From: Antennarius striatus
Taxonomy: Eukaryota > Chordata > Actinopteri > Lophiiformes > Antennariidae
DNA length: 64,000 bases
NCBI RefSeq assembly: GCF_040054535.1
Contig: NC_090797.1
Span: 12,711,001 to 12,775,000 of the forward strand
Reading direction: 5' to 3'
In this document: positions 1,958-9,123 of the stretch, piece after piece
Layout: each line of letters starts with the position of its first letter
Numbering within the stretch: the stretch's first letter is position 1
Notes under the pieces: model-generated
The model's database searches: none
Seen by the model: the letters and a program-made list of their open reading frames with translations, nothing else
Told to the model about the DNA's origin: nothing
Program-made: the position numbers and the translations under genes

Positions 1958-9123
<7,166 letters not shown>

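Follow-up and report, generated by a model that had tools for sequence, protein, structure and literature searches.

The window, a stretch of 64,000 nucleotides (C22:12711001–12775000), carries on its forward strand a piwil1 copy of 20 exons at positions 1958–9123; positions given below without a contig name are those of the window. We rebuilt the gene model by in-frame chaining of GT–AG exons, which places exons 1–5 at 1958–2026, 3674–3788, 3918–4028, 4130–4344 and 4430–4551, exons 6–10 at 4635–4715, 5667–5864, 5947–6055, 6136–6259 and 6344–6461, exons 11–15 at 6569–6683, 6755–6942, 7035–7107, 7207–7407 and 7544–7647, and exons 16–20 at 7853–7923, 8125–8278, 8359–8484, 8685–8832 and 9007–9123. 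All 19 introns are GT–AG, and the originally predicted piwil1 gene of 20 exons in phase is recovered. The joined exons give 852 codons and a stop, with one internal stop. At the exon 2/3 boundary several junctions are possible, and the one chosen yields an AGFQ...ERGGRRRDF stretch that is present too in the solved Piwi-like protein 1. The original prediction had counted 859 codons with the internal stop at codon 225; the stop stands, at codon 219, and the excess of six codons probably arose because a different exon 2/3 junction was used.

The pieces flanking the stop contain, above the Pfam cut-off and in N–PAZ–PIWI order, a Piwi_N domain (E = 7.5e-10), a PAZ domain (5.5e-34) and a Piwi domain (9.8e-98). 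Against solved structures the best match is Piwi-like protein 1, with 920 bits versus 612 bits for the best Piwi-like protein 2; the gene is closer to PIWIL1 than to PIWIL2. Residues D623, E661, D693 and H827, which we take to be the slicer tetrad, are found at identical positions in each of the five complete copies described below, so that only the earlier numbering of an intact tetrad (D629/E667/D699/H833) changes.

The internal stop is an in-frame TAG in exon 6, at 4657–4659. The alignment to Piwi-like protein 1 (PDB 9s0z, which we take to be the mouse protein) ends at residue 234 and resumes at residue 236, across the stop, and this alignment together with the Pfam matches puts the stop before PAZ, in the linker. 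Exon 6 (4635–4715) is 81 nt long and, by its frame, of phase 2 at both ends; its skipping would keep the frame, remove 27 linker codons before PAZ (as positioned by Pfam) and leave the terminal stop alone. A rescue in which the TAG supplies the AG of a splice acceptor was rejected, as it takes out 25 nt and shifts the frame. A functional gene requires an uninterrupted frame, and that of the window copy is broken at codon 219: its product, if made, should be a fragment of 218 residues without PAZ, MID and PIWI, and with a stop as early as exon 6 of 20, nonsense-mediated decay of the mRNA would be expected.

Further piwil1 copies on C22

The assembly (548 Mb, 42 contigs) appears, from its genes and size, to be that of a fish. 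A search of all of it for Piwi domains gave 54 matches, including five piwil1 copies on C22: the window copy at 12.72 Mb, three in the same direction at 12.63 Mb (L009), 12.79 Mb (L010) and 12.86 Mb (L011), and an inverted one at 12.46 Mb (L012). All five are complete, with coding sequences of 2559 bases each, and together they span 0.4 Mb. A sixth young copy, inverted and truncated to exons 1–10, lies at C22:12.420–12.424 Mb. When exons 4–6 (621 bases) were used as a DNA query, at least eight places were found, namely the six C22 copies and two relics on C3 that are 73–74% identical to the query; among the places found, all young copies are on C22. Because the genome searches score the best candidates only, and a few stretches read N, all such counts of copies and fragments are lower bounds. 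The assembly-wide search proposed with the original prediction for a second full-length piwil1 thus yielded four. That piwil1 stands here as a lone core gene is wrong, and a solitary gene with one mutation is rejected.

The internal stop is unique to the window copy among the five complete copies, the other four being open. At its position the five other young copies, the truncated one included, read CAG, as does the relic at C3:28.42 Mb, which agrees with the original expectation of glutamine there; the stop is thus derived, by a C-to-T change in the window copy. Acquisition by conversion from an older dead copy was also considered, as four private changes of the window copy fall within 4133–4657; but the base was read at seven of the eight places (all except the relic at C3:19.90 Mb), and among these TAG occurs in the window only.

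By structure the window copy matches an unprocessed duplicated pseudogene, with its introns, one nonsense codon and four open paralogs, and would lack a functional product; a processed pseudogene is ruled out by the introns. The best reading, from the sequence, is that it is freshly null. With four other open copies a null would probably be tolerated, and since none of these carries a stop, one new stop need not cost fertility. In salmon, Piwil1 loss removes germ cells (PMC9527287). Of the options first put forward for the stop, a null allele with an intact copy elsewhere is the one supported, by four other open CAG copies; a gene losing function describes this copy, and not piwil1 in the genome as a whole.

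Two of the four open copies differ at splice sites. In both L010 and L011 the donors of exons 5 and 12 read GC rather than GT, and their exon 12 moreover does not end in G; an open frame together with fully canonical splice sites is found in L009 and L012 alone. GC–AG introns can function, and with these donors perhaps only L009 and L012 splice normally; L010 and L011 may be hypomorphic. Similarity of L009 to the window copy begins at window position 1131, roughly 0.8 kb before the start codon, and L009 may have a different promoter context.

Introns differ by only 1.1–2.1% between complete copies, which is within reach of heterozygosity in some fish, and the copies could in principle be haplotypes or assembly duplicates of one gene, with the stop a heterozygous null allele. 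Five complete copies, however, exceed the two haplotypes of one locus. Four of them run in the same direction 67–85 kb apart, and the inverted fifth is 0.17 Mb away with other genes between it and L009: a PI3K-C2-like gene (two Pfam matches below cut-off), an anoctamin-like gene (below the Pfam cut-off, E = 1.7e-13 to Anoctamin-1) and NTF3. Upstream of window position 1131, moreover, the 1.46 kb of L009 compared does not match the window. We regard this explanation as extremely unlikely and treat the C22 copies as separate genes.

Constraint and sequence exchange among the copies

Coding sequences of the complete copies differ pairwise by 0.27–0.63%, with dS of 0.8–2.2% and dN of 0.05–0.26%. 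Across the five there are 22 variable codons, 6 nonsynonymous or nonsense and 16 synonymous (P = 2.9e-5 against neutrality, for which the nonsynonymous share of 0.71 was computed from the spectrum of substitutions seen in the non-coding parts of the copies themselves). With private changes defined by the majority of the five copies, the other four copies pooled have two nonsynonymous and nine synonymous private coding changes (P = 0.00045 against neutrality), and the window copy has three and none: T100M, G102W and Q219 to stop, a ratio with a neutral probability of 0.36. The difference between the window copy and the others gives Fisher P = 0.027, or about 0.035 (by hand) without codon 408, the one of the nine synonymous changes that is common to the truncated copy; these counts are small, and gene conversion breaks the independence of the copies. 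The other copies show purifying selection, and small as they are, the counts agree in pointing to selection that has kept the other copies and released the window copy.

The gene had been described as perfect apart from the stop, which does not hold at codons 100 and 102. Codon 100 (4132–4134, forward strand) is ATG in the window copy; three of the other complete copies and the truncated copy have ACG, and the remaining complete copy has AGG. Codon 102 (4138–4140, forward strand) is TGG in the window copy, against GGG in each of the other five young copies, and the equivalent of Gly102 is glycine in the solved Piwi-like protein 1 and in Siwi.

These changes bear on two further explanations of the stop. 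In the first, the stop is a base-calling or consensus error, the codon is really CAG and the copy works like the others. A single base is involved, and highly similar copies are hard to polish; against this, two further private changes of the window copy are nonsynonymous, and with 20 private non-coding changes its private total of 23 is within the range of the other copies (15–28), so that it does not look generally error-ridden. Generally low sequence quality of this copy is rejected on the same count, and an error at the stop itself seems to us unlikely.

In the second, the stop is real and tolerated, with exon 6 skipped, or UAG read through or edited, such that useful protein is still made. 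The phase symmetry of exon 6 would permit this, skipping leaving the terminal stop only, and the CAG directly 3′ of the stop matches the CAR of the readthrough context UAG-CAR-YYA, although the next codon, ATC, does not fit. Skipping, however, would cost 27 residues including IGRNYYNP, common to the solved Piwi-like protein 1. In salmon Piwil1, in-frame losses of 4–6 N-domain residues acted as non-functional alleles, some smaller in-frame changes being tolerated (PMC9527287). G102W and the 3:0 private ratio also suggest lost constraint, and we consider a tolerated stop very unlikely. A freshly null window copy remains our preferred reading.

The copies have not evolved independently. At 92 informative sites among the five complete copies, all 10 possible two-copy partitions are present and the best tree explains only 32 sites. 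Like partitions run together: like neighbours number 32, where shuffling gives 11 on average (none of 10,000 shuffles as high). Intron 1 of the window copy, L010 and L011 carries an insertion of 767 bases (2354–3120) that L009, L012 and the truncated copy lack; the insertion has inverted ends and is probably a non-autonomous DNA transposon. The copies are mosaics, and sequence exchange among them is the simplest account of this.

The conserved piwil1 site, relics and the C22 array

The published gene order of gnathostomes places Rimbp2, Stx2 and Ran to one side of piwil1 and, in general, Fzd10, Tmem132d and Glt1d1 to the other (PMC8574217). A decayed piwil1 lies at C3:28.414–28.424 Mb, where 10 of the 20 coding exons were found (1, 4, 5, 6, 10, 13, 14, 15, 19 and 20), in both orientations and with stops within exons 13 and 19. 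About 16 kb from the main stretch of this relic and on the same strand, at C3:28.438 Mb, is a frizzled gene, one of 28 Frizzled matches in the genome; its nearest solved relative is Frizzled-4, the 13 matches listed include neither Frizzled-9 nor Frizzled-10, and by its position we take the gene to be FZD10. Two TMEM132 loci follow at C3:28.478–28.480 and 28.531–28.534 Mb (of seven in the genome, by our own grouping of 14 matches), and a weak syntaxin exon match (38 residues, E = 8e-6; one of 12 matches) lies at C3:28.200 Mb. The frizzled and TMEM132 matches and the syntaxin match bracket the relic, in an incomplete synteny that covers three of the six published neighbours. TMEM132 and syntaxin matches adjoin also at C8:14.3–14.4 and C15:9.39–9.83 Mb, with no frizzled match there; these pairs are perhaps sister blocks from genome duplication.

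By the same three neighbours, the C22 copies do not stand in the conserved gnathostome setting: none of the listed frizzled, TMEM132 or syntaxin matches is close by, and the genes that the array encloses, between L012 and L009, are instead the PI3K-C2-like, anoctamin-like and NTF3 genes. Further piwil1 relics lie at C3:28.125, C3:19.9 and C10:19.04 Mb (L033, at 19.036), and together the relics suggest that piwil1 was copied and lost repeatedly in this lineage. Among the best candidates scored in the genome searches, none outside C22 is an intact piwil1. At C3:7.72 Mb the piwi-like gene is piwil2, with Piwi-like protein 2 as its best solved match, and the C9 and C14 loci are taken, from their scores and number, to be argonautes. 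C22 is therefore read as the source of functional Piwil1.

The copies are embedded in an array strewn with pieces of the gene. A genome search for exon 20 gave at least 30 matches (5 in complete copies, 20 orphan and 5 in relics); the orphan fragments, at least 20, lie at C22:12.39–12.89 Mb and all start at the equivalent of window position 8860. About 200 kb of this 0.5-Mb array was covered by the genome searches only, with 5 kb reading N, and partial copies there are a lower bound. The window holds four orphan copies of exon 20 (16825–16941, on the forward strand, 31449–31565, 39295–39411 and 58361–58477) and one of exon 1 (23166–23234, forward strand). Interspersed with the exon 20 fragments, in a repeated unit, are five open kinase reading frames within 64 kb, all on the reverse strand and Pim-like where tested (two of five by Pfam, one of five against solved structures): 10735–11664, which has a Pfam match and a structural match to PIM-1; 61191–62147, with a Pfam match; and 19610–20566, 33200–34126 and 41041–41976, recognized by open frame and repeat match. 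As they share the repeated unit, piwil1 would have been caught up in the amplification of the kinase genes, or the reverse. The kinase frames of the window are an expanded cluster in their own right.

The window also holds mobile elements. An LTR retroelement on the reverse strand (42084–49577) encodes reverse transcriptase, RNase H and integrase; its 783-base LTRs are 99.7% identical, which makes it young, and a 99.1% identical sibling lies at C22:12447243–12454870, apparently at a different spot in the repeat unit. A LINE-type frame for a reverse transcriptase of 1005 aa is open at 53072–56089 (reverse strand), and a sibling at 26167–29184 (reverse strand) is split into two frames, the larger at 26167–28326. 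Since the segments 25730–32040 and 52641–58952 are 99.5% identical, the LINE-type element was probably copied with its segment. Of the 27 window ORFs listed, 10 were scanned, and none of these 10 contains a PiggyBac domain.

Probable relocation and turnover of piwil1

We think it quite probable that piwil1 relocated to C22, was amplified there and now undergoes birth-and-death turnover, with the window copy null and others carrying the germline function. In this history, piwil1 would have stopped working from its ancestral chromosomal site and been duplicated to a new location on C22. There, within a cluster of Pim-like kinases, segmental duplications in tandem and inverted orientation would have given rise to the five complete copies and to many fragments. 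Exchange of sequence among the copies, by gene conversion or unequal crossing-over, would have accompanied the birth of some and the death of others. The window copy would recently have gained the C-to-T nonsense change in the linker before PAZ and two missense changes, rendering it null, and some or all of the other C22 copies would carry the germline function.

Arrays under birth-and-death evolution with gene conversion typically hold tandem, near-identical, mosaic copies with dead ones beside live ones, and the C22 array is alike. Such arrays are usually of immune, sensory or rDNA type and seldom of a core germline Argonaute.

The closest precedent is the expanded piwil1 set of Lake Malawi cichlids (Almeida et al. 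2025, PMC11753138); a single piwil1 is the general state among fishes. In both cases a teleost lineage has gained extra piwil1 copies of its own, some truncated, with catalytic residues kept, and a full-length copy is interrupted, by one stop here and by premature stops in the cichlids, whose copy was judged a pseudogene. In the cichlids, however, the ancestral copy is in its conserved place and expressed, whereas here the conserved site holds a relic; the cichlid extras lie on different chromosomes and are flanked 3′ by PiggyBac elements, whereas here they form one cluster on another contig among Pim-like kinases; and the sole full-length cichlid extra is the pseudogene, whereas here several copies are complete. 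The present case reads as a variant, in which piwil1 would have relocated, the copy left in the conserved place has died, and complete copies form an array. Within the vertebrate Piwi family, Piwil3 arose from Piwil1 by tandem duplication and occupies varying sites in placentals; the same survey (PMC8574217) gives no additional Piwi paralogs for the teleosts it covers, whereas here piwil1 itself seems to have moved and multiplied. Among the open-access titles and abstract openings listed on piwi duplication, extra copies, tandem arrays, expanded families and synteny, none reports a relocated piwil1 array.

More tentatively, and with rather less than even confidence, we suggest that an essential piwil1 has moved wholly into a self-homogenising array whose copy number is selected in conflict with transposons, a pool of working copies being maintained through gene conversion and purifying selection while individual copies die. 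A species whose piwil1 is dead in its conserved place and whose Piwil1 function rests on an array that is turning over offers a test of whether selection acts on Piwi dosage or diversity against transposons, and the C22 array a test of how an essential gene changes its address. A stop in one reference copy of a core gene is, for its part, to be read against the whole assembly.
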